Shown here piece by piece: positions 1-17,627 of a stretch of 24,325 nt of DNA. Both the position numbers and the translations under genes were made by a program. The notes under the pieces were generated by a model, which saw only the letters and a list, made by a program, of their open reading frames with translations, was not told the DNA's origin and ran no database searches. The DNA comes from a virus: positions 1-24,325 of the IMG/VR virus record IMGVR_UViG_3300032116_001280; one strand, written 5' to 3'. Position 1 is the first letter of the stretch; every line of letters starts with the position of its first letter.

Positions 1-1018
1 CAACTAGACCCAACTTAAGAAGCATATCTAATTTTACGTCTACAGATTCTTCAGAAGTTTTCTTCTTCTTTTTCTTTGCTTCTACTAGGATTGATTCACT
101 CAAAGCAGTTGCTGCTGTATCTCTTGAGATAAGACTAGCTAGATTCTTATTAGATAAGATAATATCTAACATATCTAAACAGAAGTCAATAATTGCTCTC
201 TGATCTAATTCTGTCTTAATTGCTTCTTCGTCTTCACCTGATTCAAGATAAGCCTTAATAGCATTATAGACTCTATTTTGATCTGCAGTTTTATTTGCGA
301 ACTTATTAATTAATCTTGGACGAATAATTGTTCTTAATACAGCAATCTTTTTCTTTGCTTCTGGACTAACTTCTTTTGGTTCTTTTTCTGGTTCTTCTTC
401 AGGAACAGTTGTCAACTTACCTAGAGCAGAAAGAATAATTTCTTTGAGTGAGTCGTAATCATATACTCTTTCGTTGTCGATACCTTCAATTTTCTTACCA
501 TTTAATTGTAGAGAAACAACACCAGACTTAGGATCTTCCCAATCAACGGTTAGAGTATCGGTTCCAACTTTAATTTCATAACCAACAAGATTTTCAACAT
601 TATCTGGCATATTAAAAATGGCGTCGTCTAAATCAGATTGCGAAAATTCTTCATTGATGTAATCACCAATATCATCTAACATAACTGATATTGCTCTTTT
701 GATATCAAACTCTAATCCAGCTGTACCGAAAAATTTAGTTAATTTTCCGTTTATAATTAATCCATCTTTCTTAGGAGAAAGAGAAACCGTAGCACCGTCG
801 ATTTTGATTTCTTCTCCGCCCAATAGAGAATCGATATGGTCTTTATGATCTTCTTGTTCAGTAATATACGAAAGAATTAAATTATCGCATAGTACATTTA
901 AAGATTCGAGAATCTGTTCGCTATCTTCGCTTTTTATGGATAATTCCTTGGCTTCTTGAATCAAGAGCTCAGAGTGTTCCATCTTTACTTTTCTTGAAAA
1001 ATCTGAAAATTTTTGCAT
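1..1018 (-). CDS. Unrecognised acidic late protein, C-terminus cut by window edge
   Basis: An open frame starts at the ATG at 1018 (MQKFSDFSRKVKMEHSELL) and runs for about 339 codons without a stop to the left edge, so the C-terminus is missing. I do not recognise a family. The protein has an acidic and helical start, a middle part with alternating strand-like segments (residues about 60-140), a Glu/Pro/Lys-rich linker near 165-180, and a Lys-rich stretch near residue 320. Two segments fit the T4 prohead-protease consensus L/I-x-E|A: I-Q-E|A near residue 22 and L-V-E|A just before the Lys run. It is the last gene seen in the late block that begins at 5482. A virion or prohead role is an inference from position and these motifs only. 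Confidence 0.8.
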   Translation of the reverse strand, partial: MQKFSDFSRKVKMEHSELLIQEAKELSIKSEDSEQILESLNVLCDNLILSYITEQEDHKDHIDSLLGGEEIKIDGATVSLSPKKDGLIINGKLTKFFGTAGLEFDIKRAISVMLDDIGDYINEEFSQSDLDDAIFNMPDNVENLVGYEIKVGTDTLTVDWEDPKSGVVSLQLNGKKIEGIDNERVYDYDSLKEIILSALGKLTTVPEEEPEKEPKEVSPEAKKKIAVLRTIIRPRLINKFANKTADQNRVYNAIKAYLESGEDEEAIKTELDQRAIIDFCLDMLDIILSNKNLASLISRDTAATALSESILVEAKKKKKKTSEESVDVKLDMLLKLGLV

Positions 1019-3343: not shown

Positions 3344-5302
3344 TTAGAACCTTCCTTTTGCTGATCTAAAATTTGGATTGATTAATTTGTACCCGGATTT
3401 GGTAACATATCCTTCACCACCTGGAAGAGAATCAACTTCAAATTTAACACCACCCAAAATACCTTCATTTGTAGACTTATCTAGTTGTTCTATAAGAGAT
3501 ATCTTGACATCATATATTTGTCTATAAATTTTCCAGAAAACTTCCCAACTTTGCGGTTTTTCAGAAATTACTGTTGTTATTTCTTTCTTTCTACTTTCAG
3601 TTAATTTGGATGACGATAGCCAATCATTAAACGAAAGATCACCATCAGATTTACCAAAAGCTATTGAATATGTGTAAAGATTTTCTTTAAATGATTCGTT
3701 TGACATTTTTGGAGAAGAATAATTTGCAATCTCATCGATCTGATTCTTTTTAGAATTTATGGTATTCTTAATAAGAGTCATTTGCTTTATTAAATTTCTA
3801 GATTCATTATTCTTCTTAATATAAGTTGTTCCAACAACAATTAAATCCGGATTGTTATTCATTTTTCCAATATATGAGTCGTCATACGAATCAAGATTTT
3901 CATCGCCAATGTTTGTTACAGTACCATGTGTTGTAACCATACTCTTTGCTCTTTTAATTTTCCCGCCAAATGCATTTGGCGTAAGAACATACTTAACTTT
4001 ATTAGGAGTAAAGAAATAATTTCCAGCTTTATCTTGCGGTGGAGTAGAAGAAAACATAATATCGCCTTTGAAGAATATTCCTCTAAATTCTTTTGTGTTA
4101 GGAACAGCTCGTTCAAAAATATCCCACAACTTCATATACATATCAGATAATTCTTTTCTCTTGTTATAAAATTCTTGATCCGTATCTGTTGCAGATTTTT
4201 TACCAGTTGATATTATATCTTTTTCTAAATCAGATTTAGAAGATACAATTTTCTTTCTCCATTGAGCCTGAGGTAATAATAAAAAGTTACCCAAATTATC
4301 TCTACCCCAATAAATTGCAGTAGAACCATCCCATTTAATTGACACTTCATCTGTATTGTCCGCAATACTAATCATCTCGTTTAATACATCTATCGCACCT
4401 GAAGTTCCCTCAACGATTAACATATCTTCTACGTGTTGATATTGCCTACCAACTGCTTCATTTATAGATTCTGTTAAACTAACATTATAAACTTTAACGA
4501 AAGTTTCTTGTGCTTGTTGTGTTAATTTTCCAAAATCTTCAGGAATATTTTTATTGATGTAATCAACTATTGTTTCTACATATCTTAGATCTTTACCAGA
4601 AGCAGAATTATCTAATAACAATTCTGCAATAAAATCTGGATCTTTACCATGTCCGATTACTGAATTTGTATTTGGATTATCATATATTAGAGTTGCATTA
4701 GTTAAAGGATCAACTAAACCAAATTTATAACTATATTTAAGTCCTCTTGCTCTGGCCATAGAAGCTAATAGAATATTTCTATGAACTCCCTTAAACTTAG
4801 AATCTTTCTTACCACCAGCCATCGAAAATGCTTGCCAGATTAAATTATCTGAAAACATAAAATCAACTTGAACGAATCCATTTTCGGCCGAACCATTTAT
4901 TGGAAATCTAAAATGAACATTATCTCCAGATGACATAATATATCCATCAGTTTTCTTTTTGGTGTTGATGATATCTGCTTGTTCTATACCGTTTTTTAAG
5001 CACCAAGATTTTAATCTTTGAATTAATTCTTCTTTAGTTATTTCGTTTTCGTCAACGAATAAATCTAAATCCCCAGAATCATATTTTCTTCCAGTAGTAC
5101 CCAACCATTTCTTAGGAAAATCATCATCACCTTTATCTACTGTGAAATCTAACCCTGTTATTTTTTCTATAAGAGAAATAGTTGATGGAATATCTTTTTG
5201 TAAAATTCTTTTTGTTAAGGAACCTTCTTGGTTTTTGAAGACATTTCCACCTTCGAATAAAAGGGATTCAAATATAGATAAGAAAGATTTAAACGACAAC
5301 AT
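3344..5302 (-). CDS. Fusion of pol-beta-type nucleotidyltransferase and polynucleotide-ligase-like domain
   Basis: The start is ATG at 5302, which shares its A with the TGA of the upstream gene (TGATG); a TTG one codon earlier is possible but less likely. In the 652-residue protein, GDLDLFVD near 77-84 and VQVDFMF near 144-150 fit the two- plus one-aspartate catalytic site of pol-beta nucleotidyltransferases. Residues about 285-650 have ligase-type elements: IKWDGS near 322-327 fits motif I (K-x-D-G, adenylated lysine), FRGIFFKGDIMF near 407-418 sits where motif III is expected, and EGYVTKSGYKL near 630-640 fits motifs IV and V. Whether it seals DNA or RNA, or only binds nucleotide, is not shown. 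The N-terminus (MLSFKSFLSIFESLLFEGG) holds L-F-E|G, a possible prohead-protease site. Related phage proteins may be filed as DUF6267 (from memory). Confidence 0.85.
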   Translation of the reverse strand: MLSFKSFLSIFESLLFEGGNVFKNQEGSLTKRILQKDIPSTISLIEKITGLDFTVDKGDDDFPKKWLGTTGRKYDSGDLDLFVDENEITKEELIQRLKSWCLKNGIEQADIINTKKKTDGYIMSSGDNVHFRFPINGSAENGFVQVDFMFSDNLIWQAFSMAGGKKDSKFKGVHRNILLASMARARGLKYSYKFGLVDPLTNATLIYDNPNTNSVIGHGKDPDFIAELLLDNSASGKDLRYVETIVDYINKNIPEDFGKLTQQAQETFVKVYNVSLTESINEAVGRQYQHVEDMLIVEGTSGAIDVLNEMISIADNTDEVSIKWDGSTAIYWGRDNLGNFLLLPQAQWRKKIVSSKSDLEKDIISTGKKSATDTDQEFYNKRKELSDMYMKLWDIFERAVPNTKEFRGIFFKGDIMFSSTPPQDKAGNYFFTPNKVKYVLTPNAFGGKIKRAKSMVTTHGTVTNIGDENLDSYDDSYIGKMNNNPDLIVVGTTYIKKNNESRNLIKQMTLIKNTINSKKNQIDEIANYSSPKMSNESFKENLYTYSIAFGKSDGDLSFNDWLSSSKLTESRKKEITTVISEKPQSWEVFWKIYRQIYDVKISLIEQLDKSTNEGILGGVKFEVDSLPGGEGYVTKSGYKLINPNFRSAKGRF

Positions 5303-5454
5303 CAATTTGATTCCTCTAGAGTAATCTTTATAATATATTCTTTTTTATCTCTTTTAGATTTTGCGATTCCTTCTACAACTAATTTCTTAATAATATCCAT
5401 ATAGTATTTGTATAGATTTAAGTCGTTTGGTTTTGTGGCTAGATTAATTGTCAT
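5302..5454 (-). CDS. Unrecognised 50-residue late protein
   Basis: I chose ATG at 5454 (MTINLATKPNDLNLYKYY) over a TTG 12 codons earlier, because the latter would start inside the terminator/promoter region. AGGAG lies 11 bases upstream of the ATG. The protein is mostly helical and Lys-rich, with a strand-like end (KEYIIKITLEES). No family is recognised. It is the first gene after the TATAAATA promoter at 5475-5482, and its stop overlaps the ATG of the nucleotidyltransferase-ligase gene, so the two are probably translationally coupled. Confidence 0.65.
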   Translation of the reverse strand: MTINLATKPNDLNLYKYYMDIIKKLVVEGIAKSKRDKKEYIIKITLEESN

Positions 5455-7221: not shown

Positions 7222-7356
7222 TCGAAAGAATATTCCCTTTGTTTTGAATGACTTACTGCAAGTCGTTGATTCTAAAGAGAATAAAGTCTCGAAAAGAATA
7301 TTCCTTTTGTTTTCAATGACTTAGCGCAAGTAACTGAAAATAAAGGGAATATAGTC
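7222..7356. repeat. Two tandem 67/68-bp repeats, each an imperfect inverted repeat
   Basis: Copy 1 is 7222-7288 and copy 2 is 7289-7356, directly adjacent. Each starts TCGAAA(A)GAATATTCC and ends in A-rich DNA plus GTC. Copy 2 holds 25-bp arms (7298-7322 and 7328-7352) with about four mismatches and a loop AGCGC. Copy 1 holds 23-bp arms (7232-7254 and 7260-7282) with seven mismatches and a loop ACTGC. Together they fill the space between the two divergent -35 boxes. Confidence 0.85.
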
Positions 7357-7367
7357 GCAAAAAAACT

Positions 7368-10783: not shown

Positions 10784-11185
10784 TTAGTCAAAATTTTCTT
10801 TTGGAACAAATTTAGATGCGCCCAATTTAACTGTTTTGGATTTACTATTATACCAATGCGGCATTTCGCCATCTTCGCTACCAAAAAAATTCCAGACTTG
10901 ATAATCTCCATATTGTTTAATATGCGCTTCTACAGCATCTTTAAATTCTTGATTTATTTTACCGTTATCTTTTATATCTTTAAAGATTGGCATAACATTA
11001 TTCTTGAAGTCTTTTCTAGCATCATCATTACTAGGTGCTTCTTCTAATTCTTCTTCATCAATTCCATCGCCATTCATTTCTTTAATCACTTCCTCAACAA
11101 CACTTCTGATGTAGTTTCTTAGTTCAGAATCGTTTGATTCTGTAATAACTTGTTTGTATGCTTCTGTAAATTTTGTGTAATCCAT
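10784..11185 (-). CDS. Possible prohead-targeted internal protein, 133 residues
   Basis: The protein starts MDYTKFTEAYKQV, identical to the start of the 375-residue protein encoded just upstream, and the likeness continues through 'LRNYIRSVVEEV'. After an acidic linker (GIDEEELEEA, residues 41-50) a different domain follows (60-133, with YQVWNFFGSEDG). L-E-E|A at 47-50 fits the gp21 cleavage consensus, as does F-T-E|A at 6-9 more loosely. T4 internal proteins share a short N-terminal capsid-targeting peptide (MKTYQEFIAE) cut at E|A, so packaging into the prohead is a reasonable inference. ATG 11185 follows AAGGA at six bases. The C-terminal domain is not recognised. Confidence 0.8.
   Translation of the reverse strand: MDYTKFTEAYKQVITESNDSELRNYIRSVVEEVIKEMNGDGIDEEELEEAPSNDDARKDFKNNVMPIFKDIKDNGKINQEFKDAVEAHIKQYGDYQVWNFFGSEDGEMPHWYNSKSKTVKLGASKFVPKENFD
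11147..11185. repeat. 39-bp perfect repeat, copy at start of 133-residue gene
   Basis: Bases 11147-11185 are identical to 12378-12416, including third codon positions. The repeat covers the first 13 codons of both genes and ends at the ATG. Confidence 0.95.
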
Positions 11186-11288
11186 ATACCTTCCTTTATT
11201 CTCCTAATTATTCTCCGTATACCAAAATACAACTATATATTATTAATCGAGCCTTCTATGAGTCCGGATCTTTAAGTTTAAGAACATA

Positions 11289-12416
11289 TTAATTTCTCTT
11301 ATCTTTTAGATATCTTTGAGCCCAAGTTTCTGGATTAGGATCTTTAAGAATTAATGTTGCATAACTCAATGCAGCCCCAGGGTCGTTTGCTATAGCATCT
11401 TCTCCCTTCGGAAATGGTCCTTTAAGAATAACCGCAGCATACTTATGTGAAGATGGTCCATCTTTTGATATAGCATCTTCTCCCTTCTCAAATCTACCTT
11501 TAAGTACCCACCAAGCATATAAAATTGACGACTCGGGATCTTTAGCAATAATATCTTCTGCTTCTTTAAACGGTCCTTTTATAACAGCTTCAGCATAATT
11601 AACTGCTGATTTTGCTGATTTTTGAGCAATTATCATATCTTCTAATTCAGGATTTCGTTTACCAGCTTTCATAGCAAGTTTTGTTAAGTAATATATATCT
11701 TTCTTCGAATTTATTTCTCTCTGTTTTTGTATATAACCTAAATTATCTCTTACACCTTTCACAAGATCATCAAATTTAAGTTTAGTTTGTTTTTCAAATT
11801 GAATTTGTTTTAATTTTTTATCTTTTCTATCGAAAAATTCTGTTTTATTAAGTTTGTCAAGATGTAATGCTGCAGCCCATTTATCTTTGGTCTCGTTTTT
11901 CTTAATACAATACACTAGAATTATTTCTGCTTCGTAGAAATATTGAGAGAAATGAGATTGATCTTGCTTTGTGACACACCAATCAGTACCTGAACCACGA
12001 TAACAGCTAGTTCTATGATTTAATGGGACTATAATTAGCCATTCTGAATCATCACGTAGAATTACTTCATCTAATGTAGTTTTATACTCTTGCGCTTTTT
12101 CTTTTTGTTTCGTTAGAGAAAGAATCTGCGAACTAAATTCTTTCCAATCTTTCTGAGCATCGATATCTTTAAGATTACCTTTAAATGTGTTCTTATTATC
12201 TCTATGAAAAGCTAAGATTTTCTTGACTTCTTCTGGCTCTGCTCCTTGATCAAGAAATCTCTTTTCTGATGTTTTGTAATCTTCTTCTAAAAATTTTAAA
12301 TATTGTTCATTTCGAACTTCTTCCACAATATCTCTAACTAATTTCCTGAGTTTTGAATCGTCATTCGATTGGACCAAAACTTGTTTGTATGCTTCTGTAA
12401 ATTTTGTGTAATCCAT
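11289..12416 (-). CDS. Protein with shared N-terminal cassette, 'WC' domain and 26-residue repeats
   Basis: Residues 1-37 match the start of the 133-residue neighbour (MDYTKFTEAYKQV, then LRKLVRDIVEEV). Residues about 90-215 hold 'IIVPLNHRTSCYRGSGTDWCVT', a pattern I have seen in T4-like phage proteins with no known function. Residues 274-375 are four tandem copies of a 26-residue unit starting at Tyr 274, 300, 326 and 352, of the form YAxxVLKGPFxKGEDAIAKDP; the last copy is degenerate. Such helical repeats occur in many phage and bacterial proteins. ATG 12416 overlaps the stop of the upstream small gene (TAATG). A role as a packaged internal protein is inferred from the N-terminus. Confidence 0.85.
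   Translation of the reverse strand: MDYTKFTEAYKQVLVQSNDDSKLRKLVRDIVEEVRNEQYLKFLEEDYKTSEKRFLDQGAEPEEVKKILAFHRDNKNTFKGNLKDIDAQKDWKEFSSQILSLTKQKEKAQEYKTTLDEVILRDDSEWLIIVPLNHRTSCYRGSGTDWCVTKQDQSHFSQYFYEAEIILVYCIKKNETKDKWAAALHLDKLNKTEFFDRKDKKLKQIQFEKQTKLKFDDLVKGVRDNLGYIQKQREINSKKDIYYLTKLAMKAGKRNPELEDMIIAQKSAKSAVNYAEAVIKGPFKEAEDIIAKDPESSILYAWWVLKGRFEKGEDAISKDGPSSHKYAAVILKGPFPKGEDAIANDPGAALSYATLILKDPNPETWAQRYLKDKRN
12378..12416. repeat. 39-bp perfect repeat, copy at start of 375-residue gene
   Basis: Second copy of the repeat at 11147-11185, with no mismatch over 39 bases. Identity drops immediately beyond it. Confidence 0.95.
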
Positions 12417-12580
12417 TATTCTTCTCTACCTTCGGATGCTTCTAATATCCAAAGAATATCTATCTTTGATATTTCCGCACCATACTTCTCTTTAATCTTA
12501 GTTTGAATTCTCTCAAGATCTCTTTTATCTGACTCAGAGATAATGTTAAGATAATCTTGTTTAAAAGAATTTAGATTCAT
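12416..12580 (-). CDS. Unrecognised 54-residue helical protein
   Basis: ATG 12580 opens MNLNSFKQDYLNIISESD, followed by 'LERIQTKIKEKYG' and 'ISKIDILWILEASEGREE'. The stop shares a base with the ATG of the 375-residue gene, which suggests coupling. It starts 10 bases after the stop of the endonuclease gene, and no clear Shine-Dalgarno sequence is seen. The layout is like small core or accessory proteins of T4-type phages, but no family is assigned. Confidence 0.6.
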   Translation of the reverse strand: MNLNSFKQDYLNIISESDKRDLERIQTKIKEKYGAEISKIDILWILEASEGREE

Positions 12581-12589
12581 ATTCAATCT

Positions 12590-13405
12590 TTATTTATTAA
12601 TTTTAGATTTTCTACCAGGAATAAAGTTAGAAGGGGTTGGGTCTTGCAATGGATTGATTCTTATAACTTCTGAGGTTTCTGGATTATGGAACCATTTGGT
12701 GCCAAAACTTGGATTATTTTCTTTAGATTTGGCTTTTGACATCTTTTTCTTTTTCTCTTCAGATGGTTTGGAATTCTTTTCTGATATCTTTTTCTTAGTT
12801 TCTTCTGAATGTTTCTTACCATATAATGGATGGTTTTCGCCTTTTCTCATCTCAGATAATTTCTTTTTAGTTTCGTCAGAAGCAACCATACCAGTGTGGA
12901 TTAATGATAATTTTTTCTTAGTTTCTTCAGTATGTGTTTTACCTGTATTAGCTAATGCAATCTTCTTTTTATGTTCCTCAGATTTAGGAATACCTTTATA
13001 CTTTCCTTTTCTATTCTCAGACATTTTTCTTCTTGTTTCTTCAGAATGGTTCTTACCATAGATAGGATTTTCCTTTCCTTGTAAAGCACGTCCAAAGTAA
13101 CCATTAGCTACAGCAAGCGATTCATTAAAATACATAGAAGATTTCACAACAGATAATTTCTTTTGAAAGAATAATTCTTTCTCGAAGGCTTCTTCTCTTG
13201 TATTGTGTTTTGTGATTATTATTGTTTTGAATAGATGAGGATTATTAATTACTTCTTGTTTATAGATATCTTTATATTTCTTAGATTGTATAGTTCCATG
13301 ATAACCTTTTATTATCTTAGAAACAGAAGTTGATCCAATATAAAATGGAGGGAGTTTGTTACCTTTGTAGATTGTAAGGTAAGTACAATAAATAGTATTA
13401 GACAT
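12590..13405 (-). CDS. GIY-YIG homing endonuclease with NUMOD3 repeats
   Basis: Residues 1-95 form the GIY-YIG nuclease: the strands around Tyr9 (YLTIY) and FYIGS at 21-25, the Arg/Lys-rich helix (YHGTIQSKKYK), and a Glu in 'EEAFEKELFF' as the expected metal ligand. Residues 110-240 hold about seven NUMOD3-type DNA-binding motifs, S/T-EE-xxKKxS separated by GK/GxxNP. The end (WFHNPETSEVIRI) is a DNA-binding tail common in this group. It is a free-standing mobile endonuclease downstream of gp23, as T4 seg genes are. ATG 13405 follows GAGG at seven bases. The first motif is YLT/YIG rather than exact GIY, which is common. Confidence 0.92.
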   Translation of the reverse strand: MSNTIYCTYLTIYKGNKLPPFYIGSTSVSKIIKGYHGTIQSKKYKDIYKQEVINNPHLFKTIIITKHNTREEAFEKELFFQKKLSVVKSSMYFNESLAVANGYFGRALQGKENPIYGKNHSEETRRKMSENRKGKYKGIPKSEEHKKKIALANTGKTHTEETKKKLSLIHTGMVASDETKKKLSEMRKGENHPLYGKKHSEETKKKISEKNSKPSEEKKKKMSKAKSKENNPSFGTKWFHNPETSEVIRINPLQDPTPSNFIPGRKSKINK

Positions 13406-13547: not shown

Positions 13548-14801
13548 TTAGAGAATATTTTTAATTTTAACGAGCCTATAATAATCATTTGATGTTGCAG
13601 CTAGAGTTGCTCCATCGCCACCTAGTGGGTTTGATACCATACCATAGCGGGTTTTAAAACCTATTTTTGGTTGGAAAGTATCTGGATCAACTGCACGAAC
13701 CATTTGTAGCGGAACGTATGGGCAATAGAATAGACCTGCGTCATATGCATTTGTACCCTTATAACCAACAACCATAACATCCGAGAATGTGGTAGCGGCT
13801 GTTGAGAAGTAAGGATCAACATACACCTTATAGCGACCATTTAGAATACCAGCAAAAGTATTGCCAGTATCATCAACATTTAGGTCGGTTGATAGAGCAG
13901 GAGTATAATCTAGCTTACCAGCCATTGCTAGAGCAGAAGCAACGTCAGAAGAGCAAACAATAATGTTACCCTTTCCTCTACGAGTTGTCTTTGCAATAGT
14001 ATTAGCTTCACGCTCAACGTGGAACATTAGACCCTTGAATCTTTCGACTGACCAACGACCGTCAGAGTCAACGTCTAGGTCAAAGAATCCAGCAGTTGTG
14101 GTTCCGGTAGCAGCACCAGCCTTAGCAATCTTGTAAAGAGTACGAACAACTTCACGATTGATTTCGGCAGTGATTTCTGTTGATAGAATATTGCTTAGTT
14201 CTGACTCGGCATCTAGACCGTGAACAGTCTTTAGATCTTGAGCTAGTTCTAGCGAGTATTCTGCCTTTAGTGCACGAGTCTTCGCCTCAACAGTTACTTT
14301 CTCGATTGAGAAGCCCATGTTAAGAGGAGAGAAACCTTCACCAGCAGCAGTAGTTAGACCAGTACCAAAGGTTCCTAGAGAACCACCAGATTGGAATACA
14401 TCAGCTTGGTGTGTACCAGTTCCGGCGAAGTCGGTGTCGGCTTCGTTGAATAGAGCTTCGGTTGAAGTTAGAGGACCAGTTGCGCCTGAACCATACTTTG
14501 ACTTCATGGCGAAGATAAGACCTGTTGGCATGTTCATTGGTTGAACGCCGCAGATATCATAAGCCATTAGGTTTGGTTGAGTTCTACGAACTAGAGCAAT
14601 TAGAACCGGATCAAACTTATCGACGTTACCCATTACGTTTGCTGGTGTACCAGCTTCCATAATTAGCTTTCTTGATTCGGATAAGGCGTTCTCTTGATTC
14701 TCTAGTAGAATCGCTGTTACTTGCTTTCTGTAAGCATCTTTGATTTGAGGTAATTCTGGGTGTTCTAGAATCGCCTTCCATTTGTTTTGTAGATTAGACA
14801 T
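13548..14801 (-). CDS. gp23: Major capsid protein, T4 gp23-like
   Basis: The 417-residue protein shows the gp23 layout: helical propeptide 1-49, then I-M-E|A at 47-50, the expected gp21 cut, followed by GTPANVMGNVDKFDPVLIALVRRTQPNL and 'AYDICGVQPMNMPTGLIFAM'. The rest has the HK97-fold core ('SLELAQDLKTVHGLDAESELSNIL'). T4 gp23 is about 521 residues, so a domain is absent; shorter gp23 versions occur in other T4-superfamily phages. Cleaved hexamers build the head. ATG 14801 follows AAAGGAG at six bases. It has its own late promoter at 14833 and a strong terminator after it, consistent with very high late expression. Confidence 0.97.
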   Translation of the reverse strand: MSNLQNKWKAILEHPELPQIKDAYRKQVTAILLENQENALSESRKLIMEAGTPANVMGNVDKFDPVLIALVRRTQPNLMAYDICGVQPMNMPTGLIFAMKSKYGSGATGPLTSTEALFNEADTDFAGTGTHQADVFQSGGSLGTFGTGLTTAAGEGFSPLNMGFSIEKVTVEAKTRALKAEYSLELAQDLKTVHGLDAESELSNILSTEITAEINREVVRTLYKIAKAGAATGTTTAGFFDLDVDSDGRWSVERFKGLMFHVEREANTIAKTTRRGKGNIIVCSSDVASALAMAGKLDYTPALSTDLNVDDTGNTFAGILNGRYKVYVDPYFSTAATTFSDVMVVGYKGTNAYDAGLFYCPYVPLQMVRAVDPDTFQPKIGFKTRYGMVSNPLGGDGATLAATSNDYYRLVKIKNIL

Positions 14802-14845: not shown

Positions 14846-16081
14846 TTAAAACTTGAGATTTTTAGTAATAGCATTTGCATAAAGAGACATTACAGGATTT
14901 TCAGCCAGAACTTCTTCTGATTCTGATTTTTCATTTAATGCGTCTTCAGTTAGATTCTTCTTTGAAGTCTTAGTTGAAACTTCGAAAGCATTCTTAGCAA
15001 TTTCTCTTAGATCTTGTTCATAAGATGACTTGTTTTCGAATGTTACGCTTTCAACTAACTTCTTGAATCTTTCCTTTTGTACAACAGTTAAATCTTTGGA
15101 AACGCATTCAAAGATATTGTTCTTAACTTCTTTTTCGACTCTGTTCTTGTAAGCAATAGTCTTAGAAATTTGTTCATTTAATTGGTGTTCGTAAGTTTCT
15201 TTCTGTTCAGAAATTTGAGCTTCAAGATCTTGAATCTTAGCATTTAGTTCTTCAGTTGGATTCTTTCCTTCTGGAACTTCGATATTGTGTTCAGTTAGAA
15301 GATTCTTTGCACCATTAAAGAATGATTCTAGGATCTCTAATTTTAAACCTTGATCAACTGCTAACTCATTTTCTTCAACCCAAGATTCAGCAATATAAGT
15401 TAGATACTTATCTACAGAATCAACAACTGATTCGTAAACTTCAATTGCTTCTTCCGTTTCTTCTTCCTTCATTGGTTCTTCTTCAGTTGTAGATACTTGA
15501 GAAGTTTCTGCTTTCTTCATATCTTTAACTGTTGAGATAAGTTTATTGGCTAGACCAGCATCATCGGCGATCGCTTTAAGAATCAAAATAATATTTCCGA
15601 ATGCATCATCCGCAATGGCATTTCCTTCGATATCAGATAAAGTGGCTTGTAATGATCTTACGAAAGCTGCTGGATTTACACCTAGAGCTCTTAGAACTTT
15701 AAGCATCTCTGGATCCATAGCTAATTCTTTGGGATCAACTCCTTCAATTCCATCAGCTTCATCAACGATCTCAGATTCTGATTCAAGAGTAACAATTTCT
15801 TCGTCTTCTTTAATACCTGCTGTTTTCATAACACCCTTTGCGATTTCGTGCGCCTTTCTGATAGTGGATTTTTTAAGAGGTGGTTTATCGCCAGTCATTT
15901 GCATTGCTTTCGCAGTTCCTACAGCATATGCTGAGCCTGGTGTATCTACTGGCCCCATTCCCATTTTTTCTTCAATCTTCTTTTGAACTGCATCTTCGAA
16001 AACTGTCTTTAACTGTTCCTTAAACTCAGGAGTTAAATCCATACCTTCGAAGAGAGAATCAAATGTGTTTTGATTATCCAT
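14846..16081 (-). CDS. gp22: Prohead core scaffold protein, gp22-like, enlarged
   Basis: Position between gp21 and gp23 and the C-terminal half identify it. 'YLTYIAESWVEENELAVDQ' (about 227-245), 'LEILESFFNGAKNLLTEHNIEVPEG' and the long coiled coil 280-360 match the gp22 pattern. It forms the inner scaffold that gp21 later degrades. L-F-E|G at 10-13 and L-A-E|N at 392-395 fit gp21 sites. It is 411 residues against about 269 in T4: residues about 45-215 seem to be an extra part with 'TGDKPPLKKSTIRKAHEIAKG' split over 63-83 and a second helical unit (120-190), then an acidic linker. ATG 16081 follows AGGAG at eight bases. Confidence 0.92.
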   Translation of the reverse strand: MDNQNTFDSLFEGMDLTPEFKEQLKTVFEDAVQKKIEEKMGMGPVDTPGSAYAVGTAKAMQMTGDKPPLKKSTIRKAHEIAKGVMKTAGIKEDEEIVTLESESEIVDEADGIEGVDPKELAMDPEMLKVLRALGVNPAAFVRSLQATLSDIEGNAIADDAFGNIILILKAIADDAGLANKLISTVKDMKKAETSQVSTTEEEPMKEEETEEAIEVYESVVDSVDKYLTYIAESWVEENELAVDQGLKLEILESFFNGAKNLLTEHNIEVPEGKNPTEELNAKIQDLEAQISEQKETYEHQLNEQISKTIAYKNRVEKEVKNNIFECVSKDLTVVQKERFKKLVESVTFENKSSYEQDLREIAKNAFEVSTKTSKKNLTEDALNEKSESEEVLAENPVMSLYANAITKNLKF

Positions 16082-16120: not shown

Positions 16121-16765
16121 TTACAATTTTGAAAGAAAATCTTTGAAAATAGTTATCTTAGTTTCTGGAAGAGATATAGATGTTGAGTTATCAATTTGTT
16201 TCTTCCATTCTTCAATTTGAATTTCTTTAAATCTACCATTCTCATAAACCCACTCTCTTGATTCCATAACAGCTTCAACAAAGGCTTCTTGTGCCGAAGG
16301 ATCAGCAACAATATCAGCAGCAGTCATAATCTTATAATCTGGCTGAACAATTGAATAACCACCATCTTGAGATAATGATCCTAATCCTCTTGTAGAAACA
16401 CCAAGAGTGCAATCCGCATCAATAAATGCCTTTACAATATTTCCGTTTGGTGTATCTAAGATTCTTGCCTTACCAATAAAATTATTACCATCAGGAGTTA
16501 AAGAAACAATAAGATGCGAAACTTTATCGAGATTAATTGTTGGATTTTCTGGGTGACCTAATTCACCGAATGCTCTATTCTTAGAAACATATTCTTCGCA
16601 GTATCTGGACACTTCTTCAGTCATCCATTCTTTCTTGTACTTTCTGCCGTTTCTATTTGCTTTTTCGCATTGAATAAAGATACCTTCGATGAAATATTTC
16701 TTAGCACCTTCAACTGCTTCTGAGATTATTTTAACTTCTTGATTTACTTCTCTTAGTAGTTTCAT
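16121..16765 (-). CDS. gp21: Prohead core protease, gp21-like
   Basis: The 214-residue protein has the signature of the herpes-assemblin-like prohead protease. GELGHP at 67-72 supplies catalytic His71 and GVSTRG at 122-127 supplies Ser124; 'ADIVADPSAQEAFVEAV' (150-166) follows as in the family. Residues 'FIEGIFIQCEKANRNGRKY' start the fold. I-S-E|A at 14-17 is a likely self-cleavage site removing the N-terminus. It cuts scaffold, capsid and internal proteins at L/I-x-E sites during head maturation. ATG 16765 overlaps the stop of the upstream basic protein by four bases (ATGA). Confidence 0.95.
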   Translation of the reverse strand: MKLLREVNQEVKIISEAVEGAKKYFIEGIFIQCEKANRNGRKYKKEWMTEEVSRYCEEYVSKNRAFGELGHPENPTINLDKVSHLIVSLTPDGNNFIGKARILDTPNGNIVKAFIDADCTLGVSTRGLGSLSQDGGYSIVQPDYKIMTAADIVADPSAQEAFVEAVMESREWVYENGRFKEIQIEEWKKQIDNSTSISLPETKITIFKDFLSKL

Positions 16766-17450: not shown

Positions 17451-17461
17451 TTATTATGCCT

Positions 17462-17617
17462 TTATAAACTCTTAGAGATTTCTAATTTCTTCTTTTCAAG
17501 AATATCGTGTATCTTTTGTGATACAATTGAATCTACTAATGGTTTAATAGAATTTGGTTTATTATCTTTTGATAGCTCAATAATTTTTTGGATCTTTTCT
17601 CTTTGTGAAGTTGTCAT
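17462..17617 (-). CDS. Short prohead core protein, gp67-like
   Basis: A 51-residue frame (MTTSQREKIQKIIELSKDN, then KPLVDSIVSQKIHDILEKKK, ending LEISKSL) lies between portal and gp21, where T4 has gene 67. The pattern 'I...I.....L.EKK.EI..S.' matches the N-terminal helical part of gp67-type core proteins. The long acidic tail of T4 gp67 is missing. ATG 17617 follows AGGA at eight bases. The gene ends 11 bases before the next start. Confidence 0.75.
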   Translation of the reverse strand: MTTSQREKIQKIIELSKDNKPNSIKPLVDSIVSQKIHDILEKKKLEISKSL

Positions 17618-17627
17618 TTTATTATTC

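Follow-up and report, generated by a model that had tools for sequence, protein, structure and literature searches.

A leader shared by unrelated head-operon proteins of a T4-like phage is a probable capsid-targeting propeptide

Adjacent genes in the head operon of a T4-like phage begin with versions of one N-terminal leader, and in related phages the same leader, about 36 residues long, precedes proteins that fall into ten cargo clusters. The interpretation favored here, with a probability of roughly 0.78, is that this common N-terminal part acts as a capsid-targeting propeptide and that the coding sequences following it are interchangeable cassettes for internal proteins of the phage. Throughout, the window denotes the whole stretch of DNA that was analyzed, 24,325 nucleotides of IMG/VR record IMGVR_UViG_3300032116_001280.

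Three leader genes adjoin the head genes

Profile searches of the ORFs assigned the window to the head and tail-tube genes of a T4-like phage, in the order terminase, sheath, tube, portal, gp67-like protein, gp21, gp22, gp23, a GIY-YIG/NUMOD3 endonuclease, three leader genes, and a convergent ClpP-like gene (Table 1). By gp23, the closest named phage is Pelagibacter phage HTVC008M (62%). Among 44 aligned relatives of gp23, nearly all have a propeptide site of the form (L/I/M)xE. Two tandem 68-base units that are 79% alike (7225-7360) lie immediately ahead of the first plus-strand genes. The homing endonuclease located between gp23 and the leader array is not part of the leader system. Such a gene, also found after gp23 in contig L213 (L213:13951-14589), varies among relatives and is missing in contig L215; thus, the gene is gained and lost at this position, which in T4 is occupied by segD.

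A preliminary description of this DNA reported that two adjacent genes share an identical 5' end, and this identity was confirmed over 39 bases. Both copies, on the minus strand, read ATGGATTACACAAAATTTACAGAAGCATACAAACAAGTT, encoding MDYTKFTEAYKQV. Among exact direct repeats in the window, this one is the longest, the second longest having 19 bases. The identity begins exactly at the ATG, and the two genes differ in the bases immediately ahead of it, so that the repeat is not a shared ribosome-binding region. The weaker likeness that had been described up to about residue 36, followed by unrelated proteins, was borne out as well, with 25 of ~40 residues identical. A third leader gene had been missed: a 54-aa gene whose first 17 residues align with the leader without gaps and which, being almost devoid of cargo, is possibly a remnant cassette. 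When 2,480 other non-redundant N-termini were scanned, only two scored equally, namely, the 54-aa gene and a leader gene of a related phage. Two further IMG/VR contigs of this virus have the same leader-gene structure.

Table 1 Features of the leader genes and the neighboring head genes (↓, predicted cut; positions refer to the window)
Feature	Position	Strand	Remarks
133-aa leader protein	10784..11185	-	Acidic cargo, residues 38-133, pI 4.7
Predicted border site IKE36↓M37, 133-aa protein	11075..11086	-	(L/I/M)xE here in 17/19 leaders
Full leader, 133-aa gene, residues 1-36, MDYTKFTEAYKQVITE↓SNDSELRNYIRSVVEEVIKE↓	11078..11185	-	Homologous to related-phage leaders over ~36-50 residues
Predicted gp21 site ITE16↓S17, 133-aa protein	11135..11146	-	I(T/S)E↓S in 18/19 leaders
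39-base leader copy, 133-aa gene (MDYTKFTEAYKQV)	11147..11185	-	Identical to 12378-12416
375-aa leader protein	11289..12416	-	GxxTxWC-family body, then degenerate repeats; phrog_28193/phrog_17056
Predicted gp21 site LEE45↓D46, 375-aa protein	12279..12290	-	Start of own family's conserved body; L43 and E45 invariant with 5 aligned SCTP-2 paralogues
Full leader, 375-aa gene, residues 1-36	12309..12416	-	First gp21-type site lost (LVQ↓S)
39-base leader copy, 375-aa gene	12378..12416	-	Identical to 11147-11185
54-aa gene, third diverged leader MNLNSFKQDYLNIISES... (MNLNSFKQDYLNIISE↓S)	12416..12580	-	Almost without cargo
GIY-YIG/NUMOD3 homing endonuclease between gp23 and leader array	12590..13405	-	PF07460, E = 6.6e-36
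gp23 major capsid protein	13548..14801	-	phrog_138; propeptide site LIME↓AG
gp22 scaffold protein	14846..16081	-	PF25623, phrog_237
gp21 prohead protease, presumed leader cutter	16121..16765	-	PF03420, E = 3.6e-34; phrog_207, E = 1.3e-74
Gap downstream of gp20	17451..17627	-	1-2 leader genes here in related phages; none in the window

The same leader precedes ten cargo clusters in related phages

The preliminary description had interpreted the repeat as a modular leader grafted onto different cargo domains and had proposed a search of relatives for further proteins with the same leader. An exact and degenerate DNA search for MDYTKFTEAYKQV had no matches outside contigs of this virus, and a profile built from the two window leaders alone found no further members. 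One more leader emerged when the N-termini of related phages were scanned by position; it belongs to the closest relative (L006; gp23 87% identical), where it precedes an unrelated body in a gene between gp20 and gp21. In a BLASTP comparison of the 133-aa protein (P0003) with this L006 protein (P0004), the match was confined to the first 51 residues (49% identity; E = 1e-11). Once the L006 leader was included in the profile, seven further contigs were reached. The resulting 19 non-redundant leader proteins comprise 10 cargo clusters, so that the search came out in favor of a modular leader: placement of the same ~36-residue leader on different cargos is observed directly in related phages.

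In these T4-like phages, up to four leader copies are found per contig, immediately following gp23 and in the gp20-gp21 interval, and gp21 is encoded in seven of the eight contigs with the leader. All copies but one are located among head genes. A 76-kb contig contained no convincing leader copy away from the head-gene sites, and in HTVC008M no such leader occurs in the vicinity of gp23. The single copy outside the head genes (L216:7646-8077, minus strand) lies between PhoH-like and exonuclease-like genes, with PhoH/UvsW-type neighbors, on a 14.7-kb contig that carries neither gp21 nor gp23.

The cargos are diverse. Pfam searches detected no convincing domain in any of them (DUF5600 in one, at E = 1.6e-5, was just under the cutoff), and most are acidic. 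The 133-aa cargo has one homologue, within the leader array of a related phage, L214, where the body (46% identity) recurs behind that phage's own version of the leader; leaders thus track the phage and cargos the cassette. Neither the 133-aa protein nor this homologue produced a significant tblastn match in named phages, and the AlphaFold model of the 133-aa protein (pLDDT 48) was too poor for a fold search. In another relative, a single protein (L213:9031-9858, plus strand) joins two cargos that are separate elsewhere, and one cluster unites both cargos through this fusion. The protein reads as if two cassettes had been joined and the second leader lost in frame.

A 39-base identity that extends even to synonymous sites, next to a homing endonuclease, could be a functionless scar of a recent partial duplication or of homing or recombination. 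We regard this as extremely improbable: at the protein level, the leader is conserved among phages and on many different cargos, and the L215 array has no homing endonuclease beside it. Furthermore, conserved leader residues often differ at the third codon base between phages, which indicates that selection acts on the protein.

Predicted gp21 cleavage sites and putative capsid targeting

In T4, the prohead protease gp21 cuts after L/I-X-E (PMC9026906). The motif I(T/S)E↓S occupies residues 14 to 17 in 18 of the 19 leaders, the exception being the 375-aa protein, and (L/I/M)xE marks the leader-cargo border in 17 of the 19; a motif this short is common, occurring with the E at positions 8 to 20 in 12% of other ORFs. 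The 375-aa protein possesses neither the residue-16 site (LVQ↓S) nor the border site. The prohead targeting suggested in the preliminary description is thus backed by gp21-type sites at residue 16 and at the border, by a gp21 gene, and by location among the head genes. Given that these sites are kept and coincide with the gp21 gene and the head-gene location, capsid targeting is well supported, and we strongly infer from the sequences that the leader directs its proteins to the capsid and is removed by gp21. The comparison that had been drawn with the T4 leader MKTYQEFIAE reduces to an analogy: similarity to the MKTYQEFIAE-type leader is not above background, with local scores reached by 6 to 33% of unrelated N-termini. 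The leader would accordingly be a functional parallel of the T4 capsid targeting sequence (CTS), with no detectable sequence kinship.

AlphaFold models of both the 133-aa and the 375-aa proteins contain two leader helices, residues 4 to 16 and from residue 20, at middling to low confidence. Such helices would be compatible with a front end that is never cut and is unrelated to the capsid, serving instead in structure or interaction, for example, as a helical tag for docking or oligomerization. This is quite unlikely, considering that gp21-type sites are kept at two fixed places, that the genes are located among head genes, and that the GxxTxWC family described below carries T4-type leaders in parallel.

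If the front end is a capsid-targeting propeptide, the two short leader helices would bind the prohead core, and gp21 would cut at two places, after I(T/S)E16 and after the (L/I/M)xE at about residue 36; these motifs are observed, and the cutting is predicted from them. In the 375-aa protein, the second cut would fall at LEE45 instead. The freed cargo would stay in the head and, by analogy with T4, may be injected with the DNA; the leader proteins would then be packaged internal proteins delivered into the host. Recombination would keep the leaders alike within one phage, with cassettes being gained, lost, and fused as a result.

The 375-aa protein belongs to the GxxTxWC family

The 375-aa protein is a member of the GxxTxWC family (phrog_28193/phrog_17056; E = 9.9e-25 and 3e-24), named for a motif in which G141, T144, W146, and C147 are invariant in 33 sequences; hundreds of its relatives were found in viral contigs. 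The N-termini of this family are mostly T4-type leaders, such as MKFISILLKE↓GRKEDLKKKY, MRVTEFIAE↓GYKEV, and MNLLEKYIRLLLIE↓SRVDD. The pattern (L/I/M)xE↓[GSADNT], with the E at positions 8 to 20, is present in 46 of 61 members, compared with 183 of the 1,520 other ORFs at these loci. A gp21 gene is encoded in 21 of the 32 contigs with a member; the remainder include many short fragments. AlphaFold models indicate that the family's bodies are large and folded, with blocks of pLDDT >90. A comparison of the 375-aa model with solved folds returned no Foldseek match at E < 1, and the best VIA-align hit (Z 5.2) covered the N-terminal helices only.

The 375-aa protein is not the plain combination of leader and cargo that the preliminary description took it to be, because the gp21-type site belonging to its own family is located at residue 45, downstream of the shared module. 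Since the LxE is invariant at this place in the five aligned SCTP-2 paralogues, the shared 36-residue module was added ahead of an older leader site. The protein has in common with its relatives, for example, the paralogues of Salicola phage SCTP-2, the conserved body and the LxE before (S/D)YK. It differs from them in its front end: the relatives mostly have a leader of 9 to 22 residues, and within the family the 36-residue module stands in front only in the 375-aa protein.

Multiple paralogues of this family can occur in one genome. SCTP-2 has seven, and a 92.7-kb contig (L177 and L184-L188) likewise has seven, several of them in tandem, with nearly the same 14-residue leader. In two paralogues of the latter contig, 42 of 42 leader bases are identical, and the bodies are 52% alike, an independent parallel to the repeat in the window. 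In G001, another phage with a member of this family, MRxxEFIxE-type leaders stand ahead of several different bodies. A 258.9-kb contig (L189-L201) carries N-termini of the MRxxEFIxE or MKIxELxE type on about 10 different proteins, one of which resembles a HAD-type phosphatase (MKIIELIE↓SKQLDKGKPTVFVDMDGVLADLF). The LRxxIRxxxEE half was also considered as a common phage motif and was rejected on ~2,000 ORFs.

Gain and loss of cassettes

In contig 3300031951_002766, which is 99.8% identical to the window, the 54-aa gene is directly followed by the 133-aa gene, with one leader at the join and no 375-aa gene; the contig ends 127 bases past the leader start. Contig 3300031857_001946 ends 127 bases short of the distal end of the other copy of the leader. 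The largest assembly k-mer for such metagenomes is usually 127. If that value applies here, both contig ends are the branch points expected from coexisting forms with and without the 375-aa gene. These observations suggest that the two forms coexist, as leader-leader recombination would give, and contig 3300031951_002766 is probably the deletion form, an assembly error at this place being still possible.

Long exact runs between leaders were also found elsewhere (98 and 53 bases in L212, 81 in L214, and 97/99 in L213), with cargo similarity at background. A precedent for turnover of such genes exists in T4, from which ipIII is lost through recombination under selection (PMC9391042). The recombination step is supported by the repeats, one fusion, and one probable deletion form; with leaders kept alike by recombination, cassettes could be gained, lost, and fused through them, and we infer that recombination is the cause of cassette turnover. 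More tentatively, and at somewhat less than even odds, the leader repeats may be the joints of a cassette platform in the head operon, at which recombination adds, deletes, or fuses cargos and so gives each phage population a changing repertoire of packaged effectors that probably act against host defenses, with the leader representing an undescribed class.

Comparison with known systems

The T4 internal proteins Ip1-3 are injected inhibitors of GmrSD restriction enzymes that have no homology beyond the leader, and more T4-type internal proteins have been found in related phages through searches with the leader sequence (PMC12373910). The system described here resembles that of T4 IPI-III and Alt in the short N-terminal leader on unrelated bodies, the (L/I)xE cleavage motif, the presence of gp21, and accessory cargo that varies among relatives (PMC9026906, PMC12373910). 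As for the T4-type CTS class, the shared leader on unrelated mature parts, the L/I-x-E motif, and the gp21 gene were all found. A small basic mature protein like those of T4 IPI-III was not, the 133-aa cargo having a pI of 4.7 and the 375-aa cargo a pI of 8.8 but a large size. The leader is also longer (~36 residues with two predicted sites, against ~10 with one site in the T4 CTS), most leader genes lie beside head genes whereas the T4 ip genes are elsewhere, and the cargos are mostly acidic whereas T4 IPs are basic (pI 9.0 to 9.7).

Acidic cargos in most members, head-operon genes that in some cases lie close to where T4 has genes 67/68, and several (L/I/M)xE sites per protein would also fit prohead core (scaffold) components like T4 gp67/gp68, incorporated into the core through the leader and then broken up by gp21 rather than delivered as effectors. 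This alternative is unlikely. Core components would be expected to be conserved between related phages, yet these cargos differ among phages, and one of them is probably dispensable; the large folded bodies of the GxxTxWC family likewise argue against it.

Two further systems are comparable with the proposed capsid-targeting leader. Proteins gp53 and gp54 of Salmonella phage SPN3US have identical 15-residue N-termini and protease motifs and are otherwise diverged (PMC5694885); unlike the proteins studied here, which have unrelated bodies and the motif (L/I/M)xE, their bodies are paralogous (34% identical), and the motif is AxE. In the packaging signal of phage P1 DarB, the N-terminal ~30 residues suffice for entry of a reporter into the head (PMC9024508). 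That signal is described for DarB alone, whereas here one leader is common to many proteins.

As a second leader class, unrelated to that of T4, the leader would provide a search key for uncultured T4-like phages, to which HTVC008M is the closest cultured phage by gp23. The ten cargo clusters, nearly all without a convincing Pfam match, are candidate packaged effectors, and gain or loss of cassettes by way of the short leader repeats can be tested directly. Finally, two other proteins in the window have N-termini reminiscent of leaders: that of a DUF6267 protein (3344-5305, minus strand), MLSFKSFLSIFESLLFE↓GG, resembles a leader of the T4 type and has an LFE site of the gp21 type, and that of the protein at 2-1018 (minus strand), MQKFSDFSRKVKMEHSELLIQE↓AKEL, is another possible leader, with an IQE site.
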